DNA of 36,990 nt from an uncultured Planctomycetaceae bacterium. Lineage in GTDB: Bacteria; Planctomycetota; Planctomycetia; Planctomycetales; Planctomycetaceae. Both the position numbers and the translations under genes were made by a program. Below the pieces are notes generated by a model that did not search any database, was not told the origin of the DNA, and saw only the letters and a program-made list of their open reading frames with translations. Positions 1,380-27,830 of the stretch are shown piece after piece. The first letter of the stretch is position 1, and each line of letters starts with the position of its first letter. The stretch is from NCBI GenBank assembly GCA_903871805.1, contig CAIQIE010000010.1, positions 1 to 36,990 of the forward strand. Direction: 5' to 3'.

Positions 1380-3137
1380 TTACGGTTGCGCAGCCGCTGG
1401 ATTTTTAGCTCCGGGATTCGCCGGGGGTGACGGGGCTGGCGGAAGATCGGCGGCATCACGAAGCTTCTGCAGCTCATCGGCCTCTTTCACACGCTTTTCC
1501 GCAGAAAAGAAGGTGTTCAATGAATCGCTCATTTTCGTGACCATCGATTCAATTCGCCGTTTTGCCTGAGGGTTTTTTACCTGAGTTGCCTTTTCTACTG
1601 CCGGGGCGCGAATTTCATTCAAGCGCACGTTGAATGCCTCCTTCGCCGGCAAATCATTGATTTCACCAATGACCTCCTCAAACTTAGCCGTATCCCTCGC
1701 GTCCGATGCCTTCTTCGCCAGACTCATGTACACCGCCTTCTCGGCCACCATATCCACCAACTCGTCGCGCAGCAGGTACATGTCCCCTTCAACACCCAGA
1801 CGCAGAGAATCGTCCGGCAACTTCACGGTTTCGCTGGGCACAATCCCCGGTGCATAGGGAACGCGAGCCAGCAACATGCTGCCACTGTAGGCATACAGCC
1901 AAAATGTCGGATTGGCAGGATCGACCTGCAAGTCCAATTCCCCGTTCCGGTCTGTCAGGACGCGTTTTGCCGCCAGGGTGCTGACATCCCCCTGTCGCAG
2001 TTTTAGCACCTGGTCCACACGCAGACAAATCAACGGGCGGTCCGGGCGATTCTGCAACACCAGTTTGACCCGACTGGTTGAGGCCATTGGTCGCTGACGC
2101 AGACCAATTTGCTGCAGATTACGTCCCTTGCCACCGAAGGGTACCAACCCGTGCGACAGCAGCACCCCACGGGCGCGTGCCGTGTCCGTAAAGTCGGTAG
2201 TCGGCGCGATGGTTGTGCCTTCGACGGTCACAGGCTGCTCATCGGCCGGTATACCGCCGGTCCCCAGCTTCTGATTGAATGCCGTGATCCGCACGTAGCA
2301 CAGGTCCAGACGCTGCAGCAGTTTGACTTTGCCAGGAGTCTTGCGGTCCATCTGACGCAGGAACGTTCTTAATACGTCACCTTCCGCGATCTGCGCCGCA
2401 CTCGGATCCGGAGGCAGCAGGTTGCCTGCCTGAATCACAAATTCCAGCTCCGACTTGTCCAGTGTCTGATTGGTGAACATCAGGATTGGCCGAAAACAGT
2501 CTCGCCCAAGTTCACAGACAGCATGCGGCACGCTGAGACGCTCAGATTCCTGACGCGTCAGAATCGGAGACAACTCCTGGATTCGGGTGTCAAATTCCCG
2601 ACAACTGATCTCAAATCCGCTCTCTGTTCCCTCGACGGCCACCACGATCACTTTCTCGGCAACACTCTCCGGAAATCTTGCGAGCAGACTTTCCTGCTCC
2701 AGTCGACTGAGCGTTTCCTGATTGCCCGGAACAAACCAGTCCGATTCCTTAACCTCTGCCTGCCACATGCTGCCATACATTCGCTGAAAGCCATCCCGAA
2801 TCCCACGCACAATGTCGCTGCGATGCGCCGGCAGCGCTGTTGCAGAGCCGCTGAACCCGACTTCCACAGTGACACGGTAGGGACGCTCCTGCAGCGGAAG
2901 CTGACTGGCCGCCGCCGCCGTTCCAGTAGTCTGAGCACTACCGGACAGCCCCGCTGCTGCAGCCTGCTGCGGCGTTGCCGCTGCGCTGTCTTCAGGTTGT
3001 GACGGTTGCTGTGACTTTGCCGCAGTGGCTGGCGCCCCGCCAGTGGTTGCCGCTGCGGGCGTCTGGGCAAGGCACGTTCCGGAAATGAGCGGAATCAGCA
3101 CAATGAGCAATCGGGAGAAAGCGGCCAGTGTTCTCAT
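1380..3137 (-). CDS. Secreted protein of unknown function, Ala/Pro-rich ends
   Basis: A 585-residue protein I cannot assign to a family. A signal peptide is clear: basic MR start, hydrophobic LLIVLIPLISG, probable cleavage after LAQ near residue 25. A low-complexity Ala/Gln/Thr-rich linker follows to about residue 80. Residues 84-300 form a globular region beginning RPYRVTVEVGFSG. Near residue 390, TDRNGELDLQVDP resembles the beta strands of carboxypeptidase-regulatory or Ig-like folds. The C-terminal third is helical and charged and ends in a Pro/Ala-rich tail. Its ATG overlaps the stop codon of the upstream SBP-like gene (ATGA, 3134-3137), so the two are very probably translationally coupled and expressed together. 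A periplasmic or surface role beside the ExbBD-type cluster is inference. Confidence 0.8.
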   Translation of the reverse strand: MRTLAAFSRLLIVLIPLISGTCLAQTPAAATTGGAPATAAKSQQPSQPEDSAAATPQQAAAAGLSGSAQTTGTAAAASQLPLQERPYRVTVEVGFSGSATALPAHRSDIVRGIRDGFQRMYGSMWQAEVKESDWFVPGNQETLSRLEQESLLARFPESVAEKVIVVAVEGTESGFEISCREFDTRIQELSPILTRQESERLSVPHAVCELGRDCFRPILMFTNQTLDKSELEFVIQAGNLLPPDPSAAQIAEGDVLRTFLRQMDRKTPGKVKLLQRLDLCYVRITAFNQKLGTGGIPADEQPVTVEGTTIAPTTDFTDTARARGVLLSHGLVPFGGKGRNLQQIGLRQRPMASTSRVKLVLQNRPDRPLICLRVDQVLKLRQGDVSTLAAKRVLTDRNGELDLQVDPANPTFWLYAYSGSMLLARVPYAPGIVPSETVKLPDDSLRLGVEGDMYLLRDELVDMVAEKAVYMSLAKKASDARDTAKFEEVIGEINDLPAKEAFNVRLNEIRAPAVEKATQVKNPQAKRRIESMVTKMSDSLNTFFSAEKRVKEADELQKLRDAADLPPAPSPPANPGAKNPAAAQP

Positions 3138-5752
3138 GGTCGGATAATCCAGCGCTCGGTGTTGTGGTAGACGGACATCAGTCTGGCAGGCACGCCGGTG
3201 ACGTTCTTTCGAAACACCGCATATTCGTCAACTTCCCAGAGGGGAATCAGAAATGCCTGCGCGGCGATATGGTTGTGAATCCGGAAAAGCTTCTGCTGCG
3301 CATCCACGAAGCTGGTGGCGTAGTCCAGTCCCACCAGTTCCTGACGCATCCAGTCCGGGAACACCCCAAGCCGTTCCATATTGAACGTTGTATCACTTGT
3401 CAGAACCGGCCAAAGTTCCAGTAAAGGTTCTTCCATCCTGACCTGACGATAGCACAGATCCCATTCGTTTTCCTTCAGCGGCTGCCCCGGCTGGTCACCC
3501 TGAATCACGTCCACCTCAAACCCGATTTTCTGCCAGTACGTCACAATCCGCTCGGCGGCTGCACGACTGACCGGTCCTGGCTCCACGACAAATCTAAGGC
3601 GGGGTAGTTTGATGTAGTCCACCTTTGTGTCTTTACGGAACTGCTCTGCGTCAAAGTTGATCTTGTTTTTCTTCGCGTCTTCCCGCGCTGCTTCCGTAAG
3701 TTTTGTCAGCTCCGCAATCTGCAACTGACGCTCTGCCGCAAATCGCAGGGCAAACGCGAGCCGCAAATTGAACTCAGGAGGCGTCTGGCGTGGTTCCGTG
3801 GCATAACTTGCCAGATGCCACGCCGCACTCGTTGGACGACCATGTTTCATTTCGTCGTCACGAAGCACCGTCGATTTCAGAATGCCTTCCCGATTTACAG
3901 CAAATGACAATGCCCGACGCAGCTGTGCGTTGACAATCCGGTCAGACATCGGATTGAACACGATCACATGCGTCATTGGCAGGGCATAGGGACGCACGGT
4001 GAAATCAGAGGCCTGGAAGGCATCAATTTCCCACGGAAGCAGTCGAGGGATATAGTCAATGTCGCCACGGATCAGCGACTGGATCAGCGTTGATCTGTCT
4101 GAAAAACGCTTCTCCTGAACTTCTGCCACATGGTACTTGCTGGAGTCATATCCATCAGGTTCCGGGATGCCACGCGTCCATGTGCTGCCGGTTTCGTCCT
4201 GTTTCACAGCGCGAAATCGACTGGAGATCACGGTGGGCTCCGCAGACAAAGCCAATGGTTTTTCAGTGCCCGCTGTCGCTGTGCCTGCTGCTGTGGCTGT
4301 GCCTGTTGGCCCTGGCTGCGGCGTCTGCGTGACAGGAAACCGCAGCAGCGATTCGATACTGAGTGGAACGCGTGAGAAGCGGATTCGCAACTGAGATGGT
4401 GAGCGGACGGAAACCTCGGACACAAAGGAGGCCAGCCTTGAACTGAACAGCGGATTGCTCTCGTCAATGCGGTGTCCAAGCGCCTCAGCCACTGCGTTGG
4501 CCGTCAACAGGGGCTGCGTTTGCCAGGAGGGACGTGTCTGACGCAGAGTGAATACGACTTCACGGCCAAGATCCGTCGGATCCCAGACTTCGAAAAAGCC
4601 CGATCGGAAGTAGGTGAGTTCATCAGCAGAAGACGGTTCGAACAGACATAACTCTGCAAGCTCTGACAGCCGTTCCCTGTGTTCCATTGGAGCCGGATGC
4701 ACGCCCTGCCCTTCAAACTCGTCAACACCGACCCGAAGCACCTGGTGCCTGGAAAAGAACTGAGTGAAGGATGCTCGCGTATTGCCACTCGTCGGCCAGA
4801 TCAGCTCGGCCTTTCGGGCGAGTTCGGCAGCCTCTGCCAGTTGTCGCTGCGTCGTCTTTCCCGCTGCCTGATCCAGCATCTCCGTGCTGAGCTTCTGCAG
4901 TCGTGCAGAGGCCGAGACCACGGTCTCATGCTGCGGGAAAAGTTTCTGGATACGGCCAATCAGGTATCGCGCCTTCCGATAGTCCTCGGCAACCACGGCC
5001 GTATCAATCATCGGTCCAACGATTGAGGCGACTCGTGAAGGCAGCTCCGCACTGGCAGGGTTTCGCTGGAATACCTCGTCCAGCAAAGCAATCGCGGCAT
5101 AGATTTCTCCCGCCGAGGCACGCTCGGAAGCCTCTACCAGCAGTAGCTTCTCAAATCGCGGGATCGACTTCTCCCAGCCCGGTAATTCTGTCTCTACGCG
5201 CAACAGCAACTCATACGCCGTGCGGAAATCACCGGATTGCAGCAGCAAATCCACACGCTGCAGCATCAGATCTTCAAAAAACAGGATCTCATCCACCTGC
5301 TCTACTGGTACTGCATACTCCGTCAGGTCCCCGGGCAATGTAAACATCAGCTTTTTCAGGCTCTTCAGCCGATTTGCTCGCTGCTCCCGCTCCTTCTGAT
5401 TCTGCGGCCGCGATGCTTCCAGCTTTTTGAACTCTTCTTCCTGTTTCGTCAGAGTGTCCGGGCGAGGGAACAACGGATTCACCACGACGACTCGACGATC
5501 CTCAACGGCCGGGGCCTTGAGCACCACCCAGTCGAACTCCTTGTCGTCGGCATCCGCCCGCAACAGGACATCAGCTGTGGGCACCTGCATCGCCGCTAAT
5601 TTTGGAAGTTCCGTCCGCGCAACCTTTTCCTCGTCCCCGAAAAGACGGCTTGTGTTCACCAGCGCCAGCAGAACAAGAAGCAAACAGCCCGTGTGCCGTC
5701 TGCACAGTGCGGCTGGTCTGAGCAACCTCGGCTCTTCAAATGTTCGATTCAT
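3134..5752 (-). CDS. TPR-like plus SBP_bac_5 (peptide/nickel-binding type) secreted protein
   Basis: An 872-residue exported protein. The frame is open to 5872, but the ATG at 5752 is chosen because it gives a signal peptide (RRHTGCLLLVLLALVNTSR) and avoids overlapping the upstream gene. Residues 60-320 are helical and TPR-like (for example LLLQSGDFRTAYELLLRVE). From about residue 335 the sequence follows the extracellular solute-binding family 5 fold (OppA/DppA/NikA): LRRALSFAVNREGIL, AERIVTYWQKIGFEVDVIQ, and a terminal IHNHIAAQAFLIPLWEVDEY. The family binds oligopeptides, nickel or other solutes for ABC importers. No permease or ATPase gene is nearby, so ABC transport is not supported by context. 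It starts 16 bases after the PQQ-propeller gene and overlaps the next gene by four bases. Confidence 0.88.
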   Translation of the reverse strand: MNRTFEEPRLLRPAALCRRHTGCLLLVLLALVNTSRLFGDEEKVARTELPKLAAMQVPTADVLLRADADDKEFDWVVLKAPAVEDRRVVVVNPLFPRPDTLTKQEEEFKKLEASRPQNQKEREQRANRLKSLKKLMFTLPGDLTEYAVPVEQVDEILFFEDLMLQRVDLLLQSGDFRTAYELLLRVETELPGWEKSIPRFEKLLLVEASERASAGEIYAAIALLDEVFQRNPASAELPSRVASIVGPMIDTAVVAEDYRKARYLIGRIQKLFPQHETVVSASARLQKLSTEMLDQAAGKTTQRQLAEAAELARKAELIWPTSGNTRASFTQFFSRHQVLRVGVDEFEGQGVHPAPMEHRERLSELAELCLFEPSSADELTYFRSGFFEVWDPTDLGREVVFTLRQTRPSWQTQPLLTANAVAEALGHRIDESNPLFSSRLASFVSEVSVRSPSQLRIRFSRVPLSIESLLRFPVTQTPQPGPTGTATAAGTATAGTEKPLALSAEPTVISSRFRAVKQDETGSTWTRGIPEPDGYDSSKYHVAEVQEKRFSDRSTLIQSLIRGDIDYIPRLLPWEIDAFQASDFTVRPYALPMTHVIVFNPMSDRIVNAQLRRALSFAVNREGILKSTVLRDDEMKHGRPTSAAWHLASYATEPRQTPPEFNLRLAFALRFAAERQLQIAELTKLTEAAREDAKKNKINFDAEQFRKDTKVDYIKLPRLRFVVEPGPVSRAAAERIVTYWQKIGFEVDVIQGDQPGQPLKENEWDLCYRQVRMEEPLLELWPVLTSDTTFNMERLGVFPDWMRQELVGLDYATSFVDAQQKLFRIHNHIAAQAFLIPLWEVDEYAVFRKNVTGVPARLMSVYHNTERWIIRP

Positions 5753-5768
5753 AATCCGAAACCTGAAT

Positions 5769-8700
5769 CTATTTCCGGAGTGCCGGATTAATGGAATACA
5801 GACTGCCATCAAGACCCGTAATAATGATCTGCTCGCCGAATTTGACAAATCCTGACTGGATCTGCTGGCCAATCTTCATGGAGACGTCTGTGGCTGCTCC
5901 GTTGTTGTCAAGTTTTGTCAGCAATCCGTCACTGCGAGCGACCAGCAAACCGCCTTCGACCGGCAATGGATTACCGCGAAGCGACCAGCCCTCCAGCGGA
6001 AGCGTGCCTGCCTCAGGAAGCCCCGCGGCGATGCGAAAAATCTTCGCCTGCTGATTGGCAACTTCCACAATCACAAACTGATCGGAAACCTTTGGCTGCG
6101 CACTCGGAACGCCCCCGAGGTCCTTTTCTGCAAGCACCTCCAGCGTGGAGGCCTGCATCATCAATAACTTTCCCTCTGTCGTTGCTGCAAAAAGGAATCC
6201 ACCGGAAACTGCCGGAGGCACTTCGATCGGCGAGGGTACCTTTGTCACGCTGACTTCCGCCAGTTGCGGTCTGGGGCTCTCCCGGTACTCCACCCTCACA
6301 AACTGATTCGCTGCCGTAACGGCCAGAATCTGAGTTCCGGAAAGAGCGACCATGGATTTCCATGGCTGCTGCTGGTTCTGCGTCTGCGACGAGCGATAGT
6401 CTTCCGCCGTCTTTCCTCCGGACATTGCCGTCAGGTGCAGTCGCCCGGAGGACGCAAAGACCACTCCTGCGTCAATCGCCACTGGAGGAATCTCCGGTAC
6501 TGCCGGAAGAGTCCACTTCTGCTCAAGTTGCCCCGTTGTGGTGAATGTCCACATTGAAGGTTCCGGCGCTCCCACCCATGCTGCAGGACGACCATCCGCA
6601 AGGACGATCCCTTCCACGGGAGAAACAAGTTTCTCAGGAAGCCGTAATCGACTGACGGATTCCAGTACAAACGACTCCTTCTGCAGATCGGCCAGCGGCA
6701 CGCGATAGGCTTCGCCGTAGTCTGTCAACGCCAGAACAGATCCTCCTGCCGCAGTTCCGGTCATCGCAACAATTCGCGAACTCAGCACCGTCCTCCAGAC
6801 TCCCTGCATCTGTTCCCGGTCCGCTCTCGTGAAAAAGAAGGAACCTGACTGAGGTGCCCGTGTGGTGACAAAGACCGCTTCGTCGAGCAATTGAATAGGC
6901 TGGGTGTGTACTCCCTGAGCTGTGAGACCGGGGTCGAGCTCCACACCGTTGGTGCGAGTTCGGAATTTTCTCAGATCGCGACCGGCAAGCCAGACCTGGC
7001 CGCCGGGGCCCGCCAGCAGAAACATGCGTGTCTGAGCGGCCTCTTCCAGCTGGTTGGCTCCTACAAATGCCAGCGGCGGCTGCCCAGGCTCATCACCCAC
7101 ACGGAAGGCACTGATACGCTGCGGTGTTGAGGGCACGAACAGCTCATATCCACGCAGTAGCGCCGGATCCTGAATCTGTCCATCCACGCTGTTGGATGCG
7201 ACCACCGTCAGCTCACCACTGGCTTCTTCCTGAAGCGTTTGAATGCGCGACTTTTCTGAACTCTCGTTATCGCACATCAGGTAGTAACGCCCGGCAGAGA
7301 ACATTGGCGCCCGGATACTACCCACGCGGTGCGGAATCTGTGACACAGTCTGACAGGCAAACGGATTCAGCGAGATGCTGTACACCAGTGTCTGGTCGCC
7401 GGGAAGCACCAGTTTTTGGCCATCACTGGAAACGGCTGGTGGACCAATCACTGTCTGAGGAAACTTTATTTTCGCCAGCGCTCGTCCATTAACCGCCGCA
7501 ATCTGCAGCAACTCTCCATCGTCGGTTGTCAGATAAATTGTACCGGACACAATCAACGGCGCCGCACTCGGACGACTGCCCGTCGTCTGCCTCCAGAGAA
7601 CCTTGCCAGTGTCCTCTGCCAGCATCTGCAGTTCAGCAGTCAGGGTACTGTAGACCAGAACTCCCGGTGTCGTCCCGGTGACCGGCAACGGAGCAAACGG
7701 TGCGTCGGCTCCGATAATGTGTTTCCAGCGAGGATCACCAGTGTCGGCATCCACAGAACAGCAGCTGTCCAGACCAATAGTGACAATAAAACGGCCCTGA
7801 GATACCAGATCAGATTGGCCCTGCGTCCTGAGAGACAACGAGACAGCAGGCAGGGGTTCAACAGCCGGGTCTGCCGGAAGGGCATCCCGTCCCACGTCCG
7901 TCCTGACCGTCAGTTCTTTCTCGCGCATCAGGATATCTGACAGCATTTTTCGGACGTCCTTGTCGTCTTTCAGAGAAGGATAACGATCAATCAGTGCCTG
8001 ACGTGTCTCAATGGCGGCAAGCGTGTTGCCAGCCGCCAATTGACTGGCAATCGTCTCGGTTGTGGCTTTAAATGTCAGCTTTCGAGCAATGGCACCCTCG
8101 GCGATTCGTTGCCGTTCCTGCAGGAACTGCTCGCGATTTTGGGGAATCCCGCCGTCACCCGAAAAACGCCGCAGCAGATCCATTGCTTCCCTGCTGACGG
8201 TCAGTGCTTCTTCTGACTGAATGGTTTCAGCAACGATCGCCCCGGCATATGCGAGTCGATCCGCATACCGTCTCAAGGTGTCCTTTATTTCTCCATACCC
8301 CGGCAGATCAGCACACTCACTGATCATGGTTCGCAGTTCCGTCATACCCCGAATGACGTCCGGCGTGTTTGTGAGGATATACTTTTCCACCAGTGTCCGA
8401 TGCAGACCAATTTTAGCCTTTGGAGTGGACACCGTTTTCGGATAGGCCTGCAGGAACTGGGAAAACCTGACTTCGGCATCGATGTACTTCTGCTGTTCCA
8501 GGAATGAGGTGGCTTCTTTCAGCATCCGTTCTTCGGCATTCCACTGATTGATATACCAGAAGATGCCTGACAGAAGGAAACACAGCAGAGTCACTCCGGT
8601 CAGAACCAGAACCACCGGAGAACGCCCGATTTTTTGCTGGCCAGGCCGCTGCGGGCCCCCACTCAGTTTTTCTGCGAACATGGTCAGACGACCACGTTTC

Positions 8701-8831
8701 AGCTGACGCTTTGCCTTTTCCGCAACCGCTTCTTTTGCGGCCTCCGGGTCGTTTTTCTGGTTGTCCATGTTTGAAGCAGCCACAGTGTTTTCCAGTCCCA
8801 ACAGATATCGTATCCCGGAGCCCGCAGACAT
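5769..8831 (-). CDS. Membrane-anchored TPR and PQQ-like beta-propeller protein
   Basis: A 1020-residue single-pass membrane protein. Residues 1-70 are charged and probably cytoplasmic. Residues about 72-94 (PVVLVLTGVTLLCFLLSGIF) form one transmembrane helix. Residues 98-300 are TPR/YbgF-like helices (FLEQQKYIDAEVRFSQFLQ). From about residue 335 come repeated PQQ/Trp-docking-type beta-propeller blades, for example DTGDPRWKHIIGADAPFAP and DTGKVLWRQTTGSRPSAAP. No dehydrogenase active-site residues are evident, so it is more likely a scaffold or sensor like BamB than an enzyme. The start is uncertain: ATG 8831 has a distant GAGGA, while an in-frame ATG at 8768 also gives a plausible charged N-terminus. 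It lies 63 bases after the kinase-ExbD gene and 16 before the SBP gene. Confidence 0.88.
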   Translation of the reverse strand: MSAGSGIRYLLGLENTVAASNMDNQKNDPEAAKEAVAEKAKRQLKRGRLTMFAEKLSGGPQRPGQQKIGRSPVVLVLTGVTLLCFLLSGIFWYINQWNAEERMLKEATSFLEQQKYIDAEVRFSQFLQAYPKTVSTPKAKIGLHRTLVEKYILTNTPDVIRGMTELRTMISECADLPGYGEIKDTLRRYADRLAYAGAIVAETIQSEEALTVSREAMDLLRRFSGDGGIPQNREQFLQERQRIAEGAIARKLTFKATTETIASQLAAGNTLAAIETRQALIDRYPSLKDDKDVRKMLSDILMREKELTVRTDVGRDALPADPAVEPLPAVSLSLRTQGQSDLVSQGRFIVTIGLDSCCSVDADTGDPRWKHIIGADAPFAPLPVTGTTPGVLVYSTLTAELQMLAEDTGKVLWRQTTGSRPSAAPLIVSGTIYLTTDDGELLQIAAVNGRALAKIKFPQTVIGPPAVSSDGQKLVLPGDQTLVYSISLNPFACQTVSQIPHRVGSIRAPMFSAGRYYLMCDNESSEKSRIQTLQEEASGELTVVASNSVDGQIQDPALLRGYELFVPSTPQRISAFRVGDEPGQPPLAFVGANQLEEAAQTRMFLLAGPGGQVWLAGRDLRKFRTRTNGVELDPGLTAQGVHTQPIQLLDEAVFVTTRAPQSGSFFFTRADREQMQGVWRTVLSSRIVAMTGTAAGGSVLALTDYGEAYRVPLADLQKESFVLESVSRLRLPEKLVSPVEGIVLADGRPAAWVGAPEPSMWTFTTTGQLEQKWTLPAVPEIPPVAIDAGVVFASSGRLHLTAMSGGKTAEDYRSSQTQNQQQPWKSMVALSGTQILAVTAANQFVRVEYRESPRPQLAEVSVTKVPSPIEVPPAVSGGFLFAATTEGKLLMMQASTLEVLAEKDLGGVPSAQPKVSDQFVIVEVANQQAKIFRIAAGLPEAGTLPLEGWSLRGNPLPVEGGLLVARSDGLLTKLDNNGAATDVSMKIGQQIQSGFVKFGEQIIITGLDGSLYSINPALRK

Positions 8832-8894: not shown

Positions 8895-10415
8895 TTACCA
8901 CTCTGCAATCTTGTTTTTCACCCGGGTAAATCCCGCCTGAGTTGCTGCATCAATCACCATGATACGGGCTTCATGTGTGGAATCCGGATGCAGTTCCAGT
9001 TCCACGTCCGTCAGGTCTGCACTGGCGTTCTTTTCTGCCTTCAGTAACTCAAGAAGTTCCCTGTAACTGGTTGCTTTCTTTGTTTCTTCAATGAAGAAAA
9101 TATTCTCTGCATCAACCTGAACTTTAATGGCTGTCGACGACTGGTCCTGCTCGACAACCACGGATGTCGAGACACCATCAGTCTTCTTTGCGGGCGGAAC
9201 GTCAAAGGCCTTCTGCATGCTGAATGACGCCGTGACCATAAAAAAGATGAGCAGTTGAAAGGTCACGTCCACCGCTGGAGTCAGGTCAATGGCCGCACTT
9301 TCTTCCACTCGTTTTCGCTTTGGCGGTGGATCATCATCATCGTTATCTTCTCCCGACGGCAACACTCCCCGGGCTTCGCTTTGGGGCGGAACTGCCACCT
9401 TCTGCCGGTCCGGCATGATGGTGGTCTCTGTCACGTCCGCAGCAGGAGAAAGTTCCAGACTCTCATCCAGCAGTTCCACAGGAATTGTTCCCGAGGACTT
9501 CAGGTGCTTCTGTCGTTCCTGCTCTGCCTGCTTCTCCAGTTCTTCCAGCCGGGGAAGACGGACGAGGTCCAGCGAACGTCCCTGCTTTTGGGCTGCCACA
9601 AGAGTCTTCAGGTCTTCGAGCACTTCTTCGGCGGACTGATATCGCAACGAGCGCCTTTTGGCCATCATGCGATGCACCATGCGGCACAGGACTTTGGGGA
9701 GTGCCGGGTTTCTTTCGTGCAGCGGGGGCGCCGGATTCTTCAGATGCTGCATGGCAATCTGTATTGCCGTCGTCCCCCGAAACGGTGGCTCCCCACACAG
9801 CAACTGATAACAGGTGACTCCAAACGAATAGACGTCCGATCGAGGATCCAGTTCGCGGCCACTGACCTGCTCAGGGCTCATATACAGCGGAGTTCCCATG
9901 GTCACACCGGAACCCTGCTCTCCGGACTCTCCAAGCTGTGCCAGACCGAAGTCCGCAACTTTCACTTCACCTTTTTTTGTGACCAGTATATTTTCGGGCT
10001 TGATATCCCGATGAACGATGCCCGCCTTACCGGATGCCTTCAGGGCCGCAGCGACCTGTCGCATCACGTGCAGCACCGATGTCAGGTCCAGTTTTCCGCG
10101 TTCGCGTATCAGTGTGGCAAGGTCACTGCCCTGCACAAATTCCTGAGCGATATAGTGCAGCCCGTCCTCCTGTCCAATGGTGTAAACCTGGACAATATTC
10201 GGATGATTTAATCCGGCCGCCATCATGGCTTCCTGCTTGAAGCGGGCAAGCATGTCCTGGCCGGAATGGGCCATCAGCCCGGGCTTCATGACTTTTACAG
10301 CGACATAGCGCTGCAGCGACGTCTGTTCGGCGAGGAACACGTCAGCCATTCCACCGCTGCCAAGATGCCTCAGCAGGTGAAATTCTCCAAGTCGCTTGTC
10401 GGTCAGGTCACTCAT
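8895..10415 (-). CDS. Ser/Thr protein kinase fused to an ExbD/TolR domain
   Basis: A 506-residue two-domain protein. Residues 12-270 are a complete Hanks-type kinase: glycine loop GSGGMADV (19-26), Lys41, Glu62, HRD at 135-137, Asn142, DFG at 155-157 and SPE at 180-182. All catalytic residues are present, so it should be active. A charged linker follows (about 270-370, with a run of Asp and a KRKR stretch). Residues 372-506 are an ExbD/TolR domain: AAIDLTPAVDVTFQLLIFFM with the conserved transmembrane Asp at 383, then a periplasmic region ending AATQAGFTRVKNKIAEW. The topology is consistent, with the kinase in the cytoplasm, one membrane helix and the ExbD tail in the periplasm. It lies directly downstream of exbB and a normal exbD, which argues for a stator complex with a kinase built in. 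The frame is continuous and shows no sign of frameshift or chimera. Confidence 0.93.
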   Translation of the reverse strand: MSDLTDKRLGEFHLLRHLGSGGMADVFLAEQTSLQRYVAVKVMKPGLMAHSGQDMLARFKQEAMMAAGLNHPNIVQVYTIGQEDGLHYIAQEFVQGSDLATLIRERGKLDLTSVLHVMRQVAAALKASGKAGIVHRDIKPENILVTKKGEVKVADFGLAQLGESGEQGSGVTMGTPLYMSPEQVSGRELDPRSDVYSFGVTCYQLLCGEPPFRGTTAIQIAMQHLKNPAPPLHERNPALPKVLCRMVHRMMAKRRSLRYQSAEEVLEDLKTLVAAQKQGRSLDLVRLPRLEELEKQAEQERQKHLKSSGTIPVELLDESLELSPAADVTETTIMPDRQKVAVPPQSEARGVLPSGEDNDDDDPPPKRKRVEESAAIDLTPAVDVTFQLLIFFMVTASFSMQKAFDVPPAKKTDGVSTSVVVEQDQSSTAIKVQVDAENIFFIEETKKATSYRELLELLKAEKNASADLTDVELELHPDSTHEARIMVIDAATQAGFTRVKNKIAEW

Positions 10416-10486: not shown

Positions 10487-10939
10487 CTATTCCCGTCGAT
10501 CCTGAACCGCGTAATGAAAGCCCACGTTCGGAATCTCCGAAATCATGGACTCAATTTCGCCCGTAAACCGGTTTGGAACGTCCTTGTCCCCCATGATCAT
10601 CAGGTCAATTCCATTCGGCCGGGCTCCTGACTCTTCATTCAATCGGACACGCAGTTCTTCCATCGAAATGGGCTTGCGGTCAATCTCCATCAATGGGTCT
10701 GTTGTGCCATCCACGGGCGCCTTGATCACAAGCTTAAACGCCACTTTTGCCAGCTCCGTGGAGCCACCCGAAACCGAGTGCGGAACAATCGCCGGGGGAT
10801 TGCCCTGCATGGTCGAAGTCACCATGAAGAAAATCAATAACTGGAAAGTTACGTCAATCATCGGTGTGATATCGATCTCGGTATCTTCCGCAGGACGCGT
10901 CTTCTTCTGATACGGTACGTCGTCGTCGTCATCCGCCAT
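10487..10939 (-). CDS. exbD: ExbD/TolR biopolymer-transport family protein
   Basis: A 150-residue stator subunit of the ExbBD/TolQR/MotAB type, which channels protons to drive work in the envelope. After an acidic N-terminus (MADDDDDVPY) comes EIDITPMIDVTFQLLIFFMV, with the membrane-embedded Asp of the family conserved. A periplasmic domain follows, ending in SEIPNVGFHYAVQDRRE. Length matches the family (about 140-150). It lies 80 bases downstream of exbB and 71 bases upstream of the kinase-ExbD fusion, so the cluster carries two ExbD domains for one ExbB. The partner energised by the complex is unknown. Confidence 0.95.
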   Translation of the reverse strand: MADDDDDVPYQKKTRPAEDTEIDITPMIDVTFQLLIFFMVTSTMQGNPPAIVPHSVSGGSTELAKVAFKLVIKAPVDGTTDPLMEIDRKPISMEELRVRLNEESGARPNGIDLMIMGDKDVPNRFTGEIESMISEIPNVGFHYAVQDRRE

Positions 10940-11019: not shown

Positions 11020-11739
11020 TCATGCGGACTTTGATTTTGCTGCAGCAAGGTCGTCCAGGAAAATTCCGGTGCCCTCGTCGATGTTCTCCTGCAGCTTCTT
11101 GATGCCGTTGGACGCAGATCCCTGAAGCACGATCAAGGGGATGGAAATGGCCATGCCCGCAGCGGTTGTCCACAACGCAAAGCTGATGTCCGATGAAAGT
11201 TCCTTGGGGTCCACACCCGTTGCCGCCGCGCCGGCGATCTTGGCGAACGCATTGATCATCCCCAGAACAGTTCCCAGCAGTCCCAACTGAGGTGCGGTCT
11301 TGATGCTGGTACCCACCCAGGAATTCATGCGATCAAGGCTTCCAAGAATGTCCCGCTCAAATCGCTCACCAACAATCTGCCGGATCTTCTTCATCGGCTC
11401 GTCCCGGGACTGCAGTGCCATAAGCGCCAACTGGGGCAACGCTCTGTTCCACAGAGACGGATTGTCGCAAACCTGCAGGGCCGCATCAAAGTCCCGACGC
11501 GCAAGACACTCACCCAGCTCGTTCAAAAAGGCCTGCTCTGCTTCCGCTCCTGGAAACTGTTTCTGACCGACTCGCCGAATCAGCAGAATCCCAGCGTACA
11601 TACCACCAGCTGCACAGGCCGCAATCCCAGCCCAGATTGAGTTCTCAATCACCTTCATGAAAGTAGATGGGCCAGCCGCAGGAGCTGCTTCCTGGGCTAG
11701 AATTCCAACGATATCCAAAAAATCAACAACGCTGATCAT
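11020..11739 (-). CDS. exbB: MotA/TolQ/ExbB proton-channel family protein
   Basis: A 239-residue inner-membrane protein with the ExbB/TolQ layout. A first membrane helix lies near residues 35-55 (WAGIAACAAGGMYAGILLI), followed by a long cytoplasmic helical region. The hallmark pair of helices follows: TAPQLGLLGTVLGMINAFAK and SFALWTTAAGMAISIPLIVL. Together with the adjacent ExbD proteins it should form a proton-driven motor subunit. The ATG at 11739 lacks a Shine-Dalgarno site. It is separated by 222 bases from the TonB-like gene upstream. That gap holds no recognisable gene, so a second promoter there is possible. Confidence 0.95.
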   Translation of the reverse strand: MISVVDFLDIVGILAQEAAPAAGPSTFMKVIENSIWAGIAACAAGGMYAGILLIRRVGQKQFPGAEAEQAFLNELGECLARRDFDAALQVCDNPSLWNRALPQLALMALQSRDEPMKKIRQIVGERFERDILGSLDRMNSWVGTSIKTAPQLGLLGTVLGMINAFAKIAGAAATGVDPKELSSDISFALWTTAAGMAISIPLIVLQGSASNGIKKLQENIDEGTGIFLDDLAAAKSKSA

Positions 11740-11961: not shown

Positions 11962-12876
11962 TCACTTCAACACCTGACGCGTTACAACAAATTCAAACCC
12001 ACTGCCCGCGCGCCGCACCTGAAAGTACGTTTTGCGAACCGCTGACGGCTGCTGGTTTCCATAAGAAACTTCCAGCTGGGCCAGAATCTGCTCCGTGGCC
12101 GCAGGATAAAAGTGCAGGATGACGCCGTTACTCGCATCCAATCCCGCCTTCTTAAACAACTCCATGTCCGCCTTCACTCGATCCTGGCTGCCATCCTGCC
12201 AGTTCAGAAACAGACGTTTCTCACCCTCACCCGTGCGAACTTCACGCTGTGTTGGCGATGGACGACTCATGTTGCTCAAATAAATCAACCGCGAATCTTC
12301 TTTCAAAAGCAGGCCGAGCTCGATTCCGAAGAAATCCAGCTGGGCCGCGTAGCTGTCCAGATCCCCTTTGTCCGCAAACTCAACAATCCAGCCCTGCTCA
12401 CGCTTCGCTCCACCCCGCCCGGGACCGCCGCTACCAAGGGGACGACCACCTGTGCCGTCGGCGCTGCCGGGAATGCCAGTGTTCTGCTGCTGACGCGCCT
12501 CGTTCGGGGCCTCGATCACCGCCGCATTCTCTGCAACCTCAATGACTTGCTCAATCACTTCCTCGATCTGCGTCACATCCGTCTCTTCGTTGGCCAGTGA
12601 CGGATCCGGCACTGCATCCTCTGGAGATTCCACATTCGGAGTCGCATCCGGAGTCCCGTCCTCCCAGCCACCGTCACCAGCCGGCATTAACTCGACCTTC
12701 CTGGAGACCGGAGCCGGAAGCATGTTGGACAGCCAGATCGCCAGCATCACTGCAAATGTCAGTAGCGCGATGAATGCAGATGTCTGAAGTACAGACACCG
12801 CCACGTCGTATTTTGTGAGCTTGATGTGGGGAGCCGTCGCTCGAGATGTGCCTCGGGCGAATTTTACAACCGACAT
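11962..12876 (-). CDS. TonB-like single-pass membrane protein, unknown C-terminal domain
   Basis: A 304-residue protein. The frame is open further upstream (to 13023), but ATG 12876 is chosen because GAGAGG stands six bases before it and it gives a sensible protein. The layout is TonB-like: a basic cytoplasmic N-terminus, one membrane helix at about 25-52 (VLQTSAFIALLTFAVMLAIW), an acidic Pro/Glu linker (about 60-125), a Gly-rich hinge (about 133-155), then a globular C-terminus (about 160-304). I do not recognise the C-terminal domain, and it lacks an obvious TonB YP motif. As first gene of a cluster with ExbB and ExbD it is the natural candidate for the energised partner; that role is inference. 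Confidence 0.8.
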   Translation of the reverse strand: MSVVKFARGTSRATAPHIKLTKYDVAVSVLQTSAFIALLTFAVMLAIWLSNMLPAPVSRKVELMPAGDGGWEDGTPDATPNVESPEDAVPDPSLANEETDVTQIEEVIEQVIEVAENAAVIEAPNEARQQQNTGIPGSADGTGGRPLGSGGPGRGGAKREQGWIVEFADKGDLDSYAAQLDFFGIELGLLLKEDSRLIYLSNMSRPSPTQREVRTGEGEKRLFLNWQDGSQDRVKADMELFKKAGLDASNGVILHFYPAATEQILAQLEVSYGNQQPSAVRKTYFQVRRAGSGFEFVVTRQVLK

Positions 12877-12901
12877 GTCTCGCCTCTCACGATGATTCTG
12901 A

Positions 12902-12978
12902 GCATCATTCCGTTGCTGAAGCATGGAATGATGCACACGATTCGACCGACTTTGCAGATCTTCCGAAATTCTTCGGAA
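12902..12978 (-). promoter_or_regulatory. Two perfect inverted repeats in the leader of the ExbBD-kinase cluster
   Basis: Positions 12902-12911 (gcatcattcc) pair exactly with 12925-12934 (ggaatgatgc) around a 13-base loop. Positions 12961-12967 (ttccgaa) pair exactly with 12972-12978 (ttcggaa) around a four-base loop. The first lies 26 bases upstream of the chosen ATG at 12876. They could be RNA stem-loops in the 5' leader or operator dyads; the sequence alone does not decide. Confidence 0.5.
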
Positions 12979-13069
12979 ACCCCAGTAATCGGGAAATCCA
13001 CTCGTTCTGACCTGCACAAACAAACCCGCTGAATCAAAGTCAACCGATCAACAGTACATACAGTTTTCC

Positions 13070-24412: not shown

Positions 24413-26071
24413 ATGGCACGCATCGTTTTACTGACGGAACCAGAATCCGTTACTTTCGAAATAAAAAAGTCCCCGTTTATCATGGGCAGGCAGCCAGATT
24501 GTGATCTGCAGGTCGATTCCGGGCAGGTCTCGAGGACGCATGCTCAGATTATCATCCGGGGAGATACCTTTCTGCTGGAAGATCTCAAGAGCGGAAATGG
24601 GACCTTTCTGAACGGAAAACCTCTGGAGAAAGGCCAGGTATGCCCAATTCCCCTGCAGGACGGTGACCGCATTAAGCTGGGGCCCATCAAACTCCGCTTT
24701 GAACTGGTGGCTTCCCCAAAAGGAAGCGAATCTGAAGACGCGGGTGTTGCGTTCAGCGACAACAATTCCTCGACCATTATGGGCAGTGCGGCTGCCCGGG
24801 GGTTCGGACTGTTTGAAGTTCGTCCGGAAGAAAAGCTGAAGGGAATCCTGAAGATCAATCAGGCCCTTGCCGGACAGGTGGAGCTCTCAAAAATCGCTCC
24901 CCTGATTCTCGATACTCTGTTCGATATCTTTCCGCAGGCCGACCGCGGCACAATTCTGGTGAAAATGGGAACCAGTGAGCGATTGGTTCCCATCGCTCAG
25001 AAACAACGTGCGGACGGCAATGACGAATCCGTTCGACTCAGCAGAACCATCATCATGAAGGTCCTGGAGGACCGCACCGGAATTCTCTCCGCAGATGCCG
25101 TAAACGATGCGCGATTCAATGCCAGTGAATCAATCAGCAATCTGGAACTGCGTTCCATGATGTGCGTGCCACTGCTGGATCTTTCAGGGAAACCCTTTGG
25201 CATCATCAATCTTGATACACAGAATCCCATGAAGCTGTTTACTGAAGGAGATCTGGAACTGCTGCTGGCAGTGGCAAGTCAGGCCGCTAATTCGTACGAA
25301 AATGTGCGTCTGCTGAAAAGTTACCTCGACAAGCAGAAGCAGGACGAAGAAATGCGGATTGCCATGCATGTCCAGAAAGCTCTGCTGCCGGAAAGCCTCC
25401 CAGCCGTACCCGGGTACAGCTTTTATGCGTCCTATGATGCCGCTCAGGCGGTGGGGGGAGACTACTTCGACTGCTTCCTGACCGGCAGCAATAAAATCTG
25501 TATCTCGTTCGGTGATGTGGCCGGAAAAGGAGTCCCGGGTGCTCTGATCATGTCCCGTATCTCCAGCGTCGTGCAAAATACCCTGAGCTTTACCGATGAC
25601 GTCGCCGTTGCCATCGATCGCATCAATCGCCACATGTGCCACAATATGGCTGCTGGTCGTTTTGTCACCTACACTCTGGGGGTAATTGATCTGTCGACCA
25701 ACAGAATTTCTCTGGCGAACGCTGGTCATTATGCTCTACTGATTCGCAAAACCAATGGAGAACTGGAACTCTTCGGCTCGGAAGCAGTCGGCATCCCGCT
25801 GGGAATCATGGATGACTACGCCTACGAAGTTGTTGAACGCGAAATTGCGCCCGGCGAGCTGTTTCTGCTGCGGACCGATGGCGTCGACGAAGCCATGGCG
25901 CCCGACAACAGCCTGTATTCCACAGAGAAGGTTCTGGATTTCATGAAAAACGGATCGACAAATCCCGAAGAGCTTGGGAAGTCTCTGCTGGCCGATGTGC
26001 GACGACACGCCAACGGCAGGCCTCAGAATGATGACATCGCGATCATGACATTCGGAAGACTCATGGAATAA
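24413..26071 (+). CDS. FHA-GAF-SpoIIE (PP2C) signalling phosphatase
   Basis: A 552-residue cytoplasmic signalling protein with three domains. Residues 1-100 are an FHA phosphothreonine-binding domain: MGRQPDC (24-30), SRTHA (40-44) and SGNGTFLNG (60-68). Residues about 145-305 are a GAF domain (LDTLFDIFPQADRGTILV, then MCVPLLDLSGKPFGIINLDT). Residues about 312-552 are an RsbU/SpoIIE-type PP2C phosphatase: MRIAMHVQKALLPESLP, GGDYFD near 348, GDVAGKGVPGALIMS near 366, and TDGVDEAM near 488 supply the metal-binding acidic residues. No membrane helix is seen. Such proteins typically counter Hanks-type kinases or act in anti-sigma partner switching. The FHA domain could dock on a kinase such as the ExbD-fused one here, but that link is speculative. 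Its stop is 79 bases from the convergent stop of the next gene. Confidence 0.95.
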   Translation: MARIVLLTEPESVTFEIKKSPFIMGRQPDCDLQVDSGQVSRTHAQIIIRGDTFLLEDLKSGNGTFLNGKPLEKGQVCPIPLQDGDRIKLGPIKLRFELVASPKGSESEDAGVAFSDNNSSTIMGSAAARGFGLFEVRPEEKLKGILKINQALAGQVELSKIAPLILDTLFDIFPQADRGTILVKMGTSERLVPIAQKQRADGNDESVRLSRTIIMKVLEDRTGILSADAVNDARFNASESISNLELRSMMCVPLLDLSGKPFGIINLDTQNPMKLFTEGDLELLLAVASQAANSYENVRLLKSYLDKQKQDEEMRIAMHVQKALLPESLPAVPGYSFYASYDAAQAVGGDYFDCFLTGSNKICISFGDVAGKGVPGALIMSRISSVVQNTLSFTDDVAVAIDRINRHMCHNMAAGRFVTYTLGVIDLSTNRISLANAGHYALLIRKTNGELELFGSEAVGIPLGIMDDYAYEVVEREIAPGELFLLRTDGVDEAMAPDNSLYSTEKVLDFMKNGSTNPEELGKSLLADVRRHANGRPQNDDIAIMTFGRLME

Positions 26072-26150: not shown

Positions 26151-27830
26151 CTACTTGTCTGACCTTCCCGACTTTTCATCAAAACGACGATAAATCGGCA
26201 GATGCCGATAATAGATTTCCAGCGTCATGATACTGAGTGCCGTCTGGTAAATTCTGCCGCCGCTGTCGCCATGCGGATCCGTCACGTTCCAGCTGCCGGC
26301 TCCGGGGCCATCCTGCACCTGGGTCGACACAAGCTGGTTACGCATGCGCAGGTTCCACTGATCCCACAATTCACCGCCCCAGTGGTGAAGAACCTGCGAC
26401 GCATAATAGTTGTAATAAATGTTCTCGCGACTTGGTCCCACCTTTGAAAGGTGTTCCACGCCAGCCTTCAGCTCTGGCCGGTCACGCTGCCAGCCAAGAT
26501 ACATCTGACAAAGCAGCCCGACTGCCGTCATCGTATCTGTCGGTCCCCCCCGCGCTACGTAGCTGTACATCGACCCATTGTTGACGGACGCAGACTTCAG
26601 GAATTCCCGCGCACCCCGAAAGGTATCACCATCCACCGAAATTCGACAGGTTTTTGCGCTTTGCAGGGCCATGATCTGCCAACCCGTTACCGATGTATCT
26701 CCGGGTTCATTCGGTCGATAACGCCAGCCTCCACCCTGATGATCCTGGGCCTTTTCTATGAATTTGATCGCACCCGTTGCTGCCCGCCGCAGCACACGGT
26801 CTCCCGGTTCCATGGCAGATGCCTCACACAGACAAATGGTTGCCAAACCCTGAACGTACATGCCAGAGTTGCCCTGTGCTGTTCCGCGAAGATCGAGGCC
26901 CGAGGATGTCTGCTCGGCTTTGCTGATCAGATAGGTCAGACCTTTATTGACGGTCTCTTGAAACTGGCCTTTGCTTCTGTGTGTATGACCGCCTCCAAGA
27001 AATGTCAGCATCGCCATCGAAGTGGCACCCATTGTTGTGGCCTGCAACGATCCCCTCTGCCCGGCTTCTCCCACTTCCGCAAAATTCCATGAACCGTCTG
27101 GCTGCTGGATCTTCTGCAGCCATGTCAGTCCAAAGTTGACAGCCCGCTCACTTTCCGCGTTTCCACCATATTTTCTGACGGCCGCCTGTCTGCCGGCTTC
27201 GGATCGTCCGCCAAAGTCCCCCTTGATAAAGGGGATTTCCGGAACTTCCGTCAGATCTTCAAGCGGTAGCGTGACATCCTTGATGTCCTGAGATTCCATC
27301 TGCATCCGGTGCACTCCGTTGTCCAGTTCCGCCAGCATTTGCTGCATGGTGCTGTCCACGTGCAGGTCCTGCAGTGAATCCGGCTGCACTATTTCTACCA
27401 GCTCTTCGGGACGAATTGAGTCGTCTGCTGGTTCGACAGGGACTCCCAGTAATGTCAGAAGATCCCCCTGAACACTGGCAGGCATCAGCCACGCTGCGAG
27501 CAAAAGTCCCAGCATCACATGCATCAGAATACTGATCAGCACGATCACAATTTCCTGACGTCGCTTCTTTAAACCCGCAGGAAGCCGCGTCCGCAGAAAC
27601 AGTCTGAATTGCTGCAGTCGCTGAGTCAGTGCAATTGCCCATGCCGGTGGTCGAGACCTGCGACGACGTGTTTGTGACTGAACCCGCTGCAGGACTGACG
27701 ACGAAACCGCCGACGTTTCGGAGTTTGAGTCCAGAGCCCGCCGGCCAACCTGCGCCCCACTGCGGGGTGAATCTGTCGATTCTTCCGAGATACGTTTCTG
27801 ATGGGGTAACTTCGGCGATTCGTCAGACAT
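26151..27830 (-). CDS. Membrane-anchored prenyltransferase/squalene-oxidase-repeat protein
   Basis: A 559-residue protein. Residues 1-90 are polar and very basic (QTRRRRSRPP), and presumably cytoplasmic. One transmembrane helix spans about 94-117 (IVIVLISILMHVMLGLLLAAW). After an acidic spacer with PEEL and PLEDL motifs, residues about 215-555 contain alpha/alpha-toroid repeats of the squalene cyclase/prenyltransferase type: NFGLTWLQKIQQPDGSWNF, GLTYLISKAEQ, IKFIEKAQDHQGGGWRY, ALSIMTLEIYY. The DXDD catalytic motif of squalene-hopene cyclase was not seen, so it is more likely a binding protein of the kind common in planctomycetes than a cyclase. A weak aaaaccc/gggtttt dyad (26099-26128) lies between its stop and the convergent upstream gene. 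Confidence 0.9.
   Translation of the reverse strand: MSDESPKLPHQKRISEESTDSPRSGAQVGRRALDSNSETSAVSSSVLQRVQSQTRRRRSRPPAWAIALTQRLQQFRLFLRTRLPAGLKKRRQEIVIVLISILMHVMLGLLLAAWLMPASVQGDLLTLLGVPVEPADDSIRPEELVEIVQPDSLQDLHVDSTMQQMLAELDNGVHRMQMESQDIKDVTLPLEDLTEVPEIPFIKGDFGGRSEAGRQAAVRKYGGNAESERAVNFGLTWLQKIQQPDGSWNFAEVGEAGQRGSLQATTMGATSMAMLTFLGGGHTHRSKGQFQETVNKGLTYLISKAEQTSSGLDLRGTAQGNSGMYVQGLATICLCEASAMEPGDRVLRRAATGAIKFIEKAQDHQGGGWRYRPNEPGDTSVTGWQIMALQSAKTCRISVDGDTFRGAREFLKSASVNNGSMYSYVARGGPTDTMTAVGLLCQMYLGWQRDRPELKAGVEHLSKVGPSRENIYYNYYASQVLHHWGGELWDQWNLRMRNQLVSTQVQDGPGAGSWNVTDPHGDSGGRIYQTALSIMTLEIYYRHLPIYRRFDEKSGRSDK

Follow-up and report, generated by a model that had tools for sequence, protein, structure and literature searches.

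In one lineage of the Planctomycetaceae, the second ExbD protein (ExbD2) of an ExbB–ExbD1–ExbD2 operon is joined in a single reading frame to a PknB-type Ser/Thr kinase. Comparison with related operons gives about an even chance that the kinase has been swapped in for the motor's cytoplasmic zinc ribbon and acts on the motor; the comparative evidence leans towards the kinase controlling the motor. To our knowledge, how cells switch the proton-gradient motors of the ExbB–ExbD, TolQ–TolR and Agl types is poorly known. The fusion makes a regulatory enzyme a covalent part of a motor subunit, at a position that other modules fill in related operons.

The fusion lies in a 36,990-nucleotide stretch of DNA (the window) from an uncultured Planctomycetaceae bacterium. 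The gene runs on the minus strand from an ATG at 10415 to a stop codon whose end is at 8895 (Table 1); on the plus strand of this interval, stops are present in the one frame translated. The first-pass annotation, made from the letters alone, had proposed one uninterrupted kinase–ExbD frame here, and its coordinates are exact, the strand having been left unsaid. The Pfam Pkinase match scores 176.1 bits (cut-off 31.7) and the ExbD match 63.6 bits (cut-off 25.4). The kinase is complete, as had been claimed, with Lys41 (within AVKVM), HRD (135–137) and DFG (155–157) at the positions assigned to them. A profile of the whole fusion finds the StkP and PknB kinases in the PDB (best 2.1e-65), and these are the closest solved relatives of the kinase domain. 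With all catalytic residues present, the fused kinase is probably active. Asp383, which the annotation had picked out as the key membrane aspartate, sits in a TPAVDV motif in the membrane helix; a profile of the ExbD part matches the solved ExbD chains 7ajq (2.4e-10) and 6tyi (6.2e-10), whose TPFIDV aspartate falls in the same alignment column.

Table 1 Features of the kinase–ExbD2 fusion and its operon, in window coordinates
Feature	Position	Strand	Length or residues	Remarks
585-aa conserved protein	1380..3137	(-)	585 aa	Final operon gene; signal-peptide-like start (by eye); no Pfam match
Family 5 extracellular solute-binding protein	3134..5872	(-)		Pfam SBP_bac_5 1.4e-14
BamB/PQQ-type propeller protein	5769..8831	(-)		Pfam PQQ_2 3.2e-12; by eye, an N-terminal tail and a single membrane helix
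Kinase–ExbD2 fusion	8895..10415	(-)	506 aa	Single reading frame
ExbD/TolR domain of fusion	8916..9305	(-)	Residues 371–500	PF02472 2.4e-17; membrane helix with Asp383 and periplasmic part
Linker of fusion			Residues ~301–365	Variable
Juxtamembrane stretch of fusion			Residues ~266–300	Conserved
PknB-like Ser/Thr kinase domain of fusion	9621..10382	(-)	Residues 12–265	PF00069 1.2e-51
ExbD1	10487..10939	(-)	150 aa	TPMIDV aspartate; Pfam ExbD 6.5e-15
ExbB/TolQ/MotA-type proton channel protein	11020..11739	(-)	239 aa	Pfam MotA_ExbB 1.6e-19
353-aa ORF	11962..13023	(-)	353 aa	TTG start, though translation may begin further in; one membrane helix

The sole strongly hydrophobic stretch of the protein is the ExbD helix (windows starting at 374–382 in a hydropathy scan). 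From this and from homology to ExbD, we infer an N-in protein with a single helix and a cytoplasmic kinase. An AlphaFold2 model built from seven sequences has an overall pLDDT of 63, with residues 308–427 (linker and membrane helix) below 50, which leaves the arrangement at the pore mouth to guesswork. Its kinase part matches PknB in Foldseek (6i2p, E 1.2e-20), and the ExbD part has no separate fold match among the best 50 Foldseek rows.

The fusion belongs to a run of seven same-direction genes on the minus strand, encoding a 353-aa membrane-anchored protein, ExbB, ExbD1, kinase–ExbD2, a propeller protein, a solute-binding protein and a 585-aa protein. ExbB, ExbD1 and ExbD2 would form a proton-driven motor, with ExbD1 as a possible partner of ExbD2. 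The 353-aa protein comprises a poorly predicted stretch followed by a C-terminal α/β domain of unknown fold (model pLDDT 73.6), and has no Pfam match and no PDB fold match at E ≤ 0.001. Its place in the layout would allow a TonB-like coupling role; a TonB-like identity was considered and dropped, since neither sequence (Pfam) nor fold (PDB) supports it. No TonB match was found by Pfam among the seven operon proteins. A promoter and terminator scan of the operon performed no better than shuffled sequence.

The gene order from the 353-aa gene through the solute-binding gene is kept at all 11 kinase-type loci compared (at L029 with the fusion in two frames). The 585-aa gene occupies the same final place in relatives' operons and is present in nine of the 11, one other locus being cut by a contig end and one having no such gene found. 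In a wider set of 30 loci (six of them kinase-type, of which L072 is the contig of L025 again), the ExbB–ExbD1–ExbD2–propeller core appears in order in every case. Of these loci, 28 also have the 353-aa gene and 29 the solute-binding gene; L108 and L109 hold an additional ExbD gene. The operon is common to other families of the same class (Planctomycetia in the NCBI taxonomy), including Pirellulaceae records.

Three further features of the window and its relatives were observed. The propeller's N-terminal tail in kinase-type operons (~8600–8710, minus strand) bears a conserved RRQLxRGRL...GGPxRPGEQ...RSP stretch immediately ahead of the membrane helix; it is a candidate site for docking or a candidate substrate. 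The 552-aa product of 24413–26071 (plus strand), encoded about 14 kb away from the fusion, combines FHA, GAF and SpoIIE-type phosphatase domains and is possibly the opponent of a Ser/Thr kinase. At 26151–27830 (minus strand) lies a gene for a 559-aa protein with weak, below-cut-off matches to prenyltransferase/squalene–hopene cyclase toroid domains.

Relatives bear directly on whether the gene is real. Among 18 genomes of the genus, 13 carry the fusion in a single frame, four are cut by a contig end yet stay open to the edge (in one of these, G015, only linker and ExbD are visible) and one is broken. Outside the genus, a frame open through both domains occurs in 17 genomes of five genera, bringing the fusions aligned to 30 open frames in six genera, one of them in a single-contig 8.9-Mb genome. 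An assembly or sequencing artefact that merged two genes might be suspected, as the window's genome is fragmented (446 contigs) and the broken copy, G007 (L029 7538–9057, plus strand), has its kinase and ExbD halves in different frames, with the break inside the variable linker. The 30 open frames, one of them in the single-contig genome, refute an artefact, which we regard as extremely improbable; the G007 break is either a sequencing error or a real split. The first-pass annotation had made its claim depend on a frame without shift or stop between the domains and on the presence of the fusion in close relatives. An open fusion frame is kept across the six genera, with G007 frame-broken. In G031, a genome outside the genus, the frame lacks the glycine loop and has its first start codon just after the catalytic Lys. 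As assembled, the G031 gene is therefore not intact, leaving 29 of 30 intact; its residues were read stop to stop for the alignment.

K41, E62, H135, R136, D137, K139, N142, D155, F156, G157, T175 and D383 are invariant across all 30 fusions, and the activation-loop T172 is conserved in 29. Averaged over alignment columns, the most frequent residue has a share of 0.82 in the kinase, 0.70 in the juxtamembrane stretch, 0.34 in the linker and 0.64 in the ExbD part, reaching 0.90 in the membrane helix. With dS at or near saturation, dN/dS is 0.017–0.06 for the kinase (computable for three of four relatives), 0.035–0.06 for the ExbD part (two of four) and 0.16–0.36 for the linker (two of four). Judged by those two of four comparisons, with dS near saturation, the ExbD part is under purifying selection. 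The kinase might be a catalytically idle scaffold, its fold kept for binding as a bulky substitute for the zinc ribbon; loss of the FHA partner domain (below) would suit this, as would the G031 frame, without a glycine loop and without a start ahead of the catalytic Lys. Invariance of K41, E62, HRD, N142 and DFG in 30 of 30 fusions, of T172 in 29, and the low dN/dS speak against an idle domain, and we hold it to be very improbable.

The kinase is attached to one particular ExbD. Of nine ExbD matches in the window's genome one is fused, the other eight lying in frames of 149–205 residues. Six fusion genomes scanned have one ExbD frame above 500 residues each, and two other genomes have none. 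Across the family, ExbD2 was matched at E ≤ 1e-20 in 139 of 170 genomes, 31 having no match at that threshold; the 60 further stretches taken from the 139 are a selected survey, made up of non-genus frames of at least 500 residues plus mostly one per genus of the remainder. In a phylum sample of 392 genomes, six long ExbD frames chosen among the matches listed (G037, G138, G191, G273, G321 and G345) have no kinase motif, and their upstream stretches resemble overlapping frames in most cases. Other phyla were covered by one pattern scan, again among the matches listed. The ExbD2 frame of one relative, L253 (G488:C3:7500-16600), has 2326 residues, ~2190 of which precede the ExbD domain and are repetitive where seen.

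What stands in the kinase's place in relatives is a zinc ribbon. A motif scan finds C-x2-C...C-x2-C at the N-terminus of their ExbD2 proteins, and Pfam zinc-ribbon models match below their own cut-offs in the three such proteins scanned. Surveying 131 loci, of which seven were duplicates, left 124 distinct loci; ExbD2 begins with a kinase in 27 of these (28 with the window), with a zinc ribbon in 82 and with neither in 15, the last including some cut loci and the broken G007. One of the neither type, L219 (4222–4932, minus strand; the second ExbD2 match of G034), has an N-terminal part of ~80 residues, with no Pfam match, that we take by eye to be GYF-like.

The adjoining propeller gene varies too. 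By Pfam (E ≤ 0.05), 37 of 43 zinc-ribbon operons scanned in the family encode a propeller with an N-terminal FHA domain, against none of 28 kinase-type operons, that of the window included. All three propeller FHA matches compared with the Pfam cut-off pass it, and the six zinc-ribbon operons without the domain include L177, whose gene start is uncertain. This count leaves aside five zinc-ribbon loci of the family in which no propeller was matched; L215 and L216 (fragment match elsewhere); L029, L178, L206, L219 and L223, whose ExbD2 has neither module (L206 has an FHA domain by small profile); six zinc-ribbon loci from named records, which have FHA by small profile; and G002 and G008, two of the 30 fusions. 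In operons outside the family, a different domain heads the propeller protein, with no above-cut-off Pfam match in the three proteins scanned: ~60 residues with an LTxxQA motif (L105 6071–6265, L264, L267 and others). Four such planctomycete genomes contain 13 matches to this domain, four on the operon's propeller and nine elsewhere, and each of these nine directly precedes, in frame, a Ser/Thr kinase domain. By small profiles, a kinase, FHA or kinase-associated domain is found on the cytoplasmic side of the machine at 102 of the 124 loci.

Judged by domain content, the propeller gene is thus tied to Ser/Thr phosphorylation in the non-kinase lineages too, through an FHA or a kinase-associated domain. 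The first-pass annotation had described a proton-channel subunit sitting where such kinases carry sensors. That architecture stands; the emphasis does not, because relatives show the zinc ribbon of ExbD replaced by a kinase. Seen through these operons, the fusion is an ExbD whose cytoplasmic zinc-ribbon module gave way to a kinase, and less a kinase with a replaced sensor. Of the two roles that the annotation had suggested, sensing of stator activity and gating of the motor by phosphorylation, the comparison leans towards control of the motor. It is attractive to think that the gained kinase compensates for the lost FHA domain. The mutual exclusion of FHA and kinase amounts to one independent contrast, and FHA is missing from six of the 43 zinc-ribbon operons as well, so its absence may be plain loss.

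The fused kinase domain most likely had a single origin. In a likelihood tree (LG+G4) of concatenated operon proteins, with 75 rows picked from 117, the fusion needs one change; 25 fusions without G031 are fully supported, and support with G031 is 74, which is not strong. The smallest group in this tree that holds all fusions also contains one zinc-ribbon/FHA row, L202. Independent, repeated fusions were raised by a FastTree of the 117 operons, in which L031 (from G031) falls apart from the other 25 fusion rows. They are disfavoured by the 75-row tree, at its support of 74, and by a kinase-domain tree of 62 rows, which groups all 26 fusion kinases in one clade (91/50, and 90% of 200 bootstrap trees). 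One change in the likelihood tree and one clade in the kinase tree together favour a single origin. That clade nests in a well-supported (100/98), widespread family of apparently membrane-bound kinases, a non-fused member of which is retained in the window's genome at C174. By identity, the single kinase closest to the one in G031 is likewise non-fused (60%, G494). By eye, the nearest non-fused kinases consist of a kinase, a membrane helix and an outer tail; a TPR label for the tail was dropped, as one of the two scanned had weak, below-cut-off matches. In the simplest history, the catalytic domain of a membrane kinase would have been duplicated onto ExbD2, and the zinc ribbon and FHA domain lost.

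An origin in a widespread kinase family would also suit a general kinase that uses ExbD2 as an anchor to reach unrelated membrane proteins, with no interplay between motor and kinase, and so would the linker's variability and its poor order in the model. Against this, the remaining eight ExbD matches of the window's genome carry no kinase; the same operon surrounds the fusion at every fusion locus examined, and the fusion has been kept across six genera. We consider an anchoring role improbable.

The motor might instead be a sensor. Load, periplasmic cargo or proton flux would shift the position or dimer state of ExbD2 and switch the kinase on, and the signal would go to other targets in the cell, as with transmembrane kinases that have periplasmic sensors. 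The by-eye resemblance of the nearest non-fused kinases to this layout (kinase, membrane helix, outer tail) is consistent with sensing, as is purifying selection on the ExbD part in the two of four comparisons computable. Set against it, the zinc ribbon in the same slot of relatives, with FHA or kinase-associated domains adjoining, looks like a control input. The linker, long and poorly conserved (0.34), would also make a poor rod for passing on a twist. Sensing by the motor is in our judgement rather unlikely.

The likeliest reading, in our view, is a kinase that acts on its own motor. Held in the cytoplasm by a flexible linker, it would sit where the ExbB pentamer opens inwards. Its substrates would be those portions of the machine that are exposed to the cytoplasm, namely the fusion's own activation loop and linker, the tail of ExbD1, the ExbB loops and the propeller tail. 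Such local phosphorylation would switch whether the motor assembles or works. Relatives would achieve this switching in trans, through a separate kinase read by the propeller's FHA or kinase-associated domain. In 5:2 motors, which protons drive, ExbD is the dimer on the inside and has a cytoplasmic N-terminus. Whether ExbD1 and ExbD2 form a heterodimer or homodimers would decide whether a motor has one kinase or two. MotAB, AglQ and AglS share the inner-dimer arrangement with a cytoplasmic N-terminus, and whether AglQ and AglS form hetero- or homodimers is not known, according to the available text of PMC9389320. A kinase built into the motor's axle could go further: riding on the part that moves against the pentamer, it would have its pairing and activity set directly by proton flux or stall while it phosphorylates the motor in turn. 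We find this doubtful; if true, it would be a closed mechano-chemical feedback loop within one complex, and the operons would form a natural series of one motor with different modules (zinc ribbon plus FHA, zinc ribbon plus kinase-associated domain, and kinase).

The fusion suggests a direct coupling between the motor and cell signalling. It gives access to an envelope machine that is widespread in planctomycetes, and makes phosphorylation control in this motor class directly testable through point mutants of K41 and D383. Rhodopirellula baltica exbB (RB12053) and exbD (RB12055) are reported to be induced at high salinity (PMC2754498). The annotation's remark that no example had been described agrees with searches of an open library, in which the titles and abstract openings listed gave no description of a kinase–ExbD fusion. 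In the main texts, the word ExbD is absent from a 2024 survey of planctomycete kinase architectures (PMC11032199), and the word kinase from PMC12204202.

The closest precedents each share part of the design. The operon resembles the ExbB–ExbD and TolQ–TolR 5:2 motors in its ExbB-type channel protein and adjoining ExbD with a TPxxD helix and periplasmic domain, but has two different ExbDs, one of them kinase-bearing at its cytoplasmic end, and seven proteins without a TonB match. From the kinase's side, the order of kinase, juxtamembrane stretch, single membrane helix and periplasmic domain, with all catalytic motifs, is that of the PknB and StkP transmembrane kinases. Helix and periplasmic part differ, being here an ExbD with its proton-binding aspartate in place of a PASTA or other sensor. 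A foreign domain on an ExbD-type pore helix has been proposed before: PMC12204202 describes a fusion to a vWA domain, mostly in heterologous pairs, and reports, for the PVC group, TolQ-like genes accompanied by two TolR-like genes each. There the foreign domain replaces the outer part of the TolR/ExbD partner, whereas in the kinase fusion a cytoplasmic enzyme is added and the outer part kept.

PpkA of type VI secretion is a membrane kinase, and switching by PpkA and the phosphothreonine reader Fha is the nearest functional model for the motor. The PpkA, Fha and PppA threonine phosphorylation pathway is described as having a Ser/Thr kinase and an FHA reader that control an envelope machine. It differs in that the kinase here is covalently part of a motor subunit, and the neighbouring gene lacks FHA where the kinase is present: no FHA partner is encoded on the propeller in any of the 28 kinase-type operons (Pfam). 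In layout, which is all that was compared, the Myxococcus Agl–Glt gliding machine is similar: its motor proteins are AglR, which is TolQ/ExbB-like, and the TolR/ExbD-like AglQ and AglS, and a membrane partner, GltG, bears a cytosolic FHA domain (PMC3169522 and PMC9389320). AglQ and AglS have no fused kinase in the table of PMC3169522, and the FHA domain sits there on a TonB-matching protein, whereas in the zinc-ribbon operons it heads the propeller.
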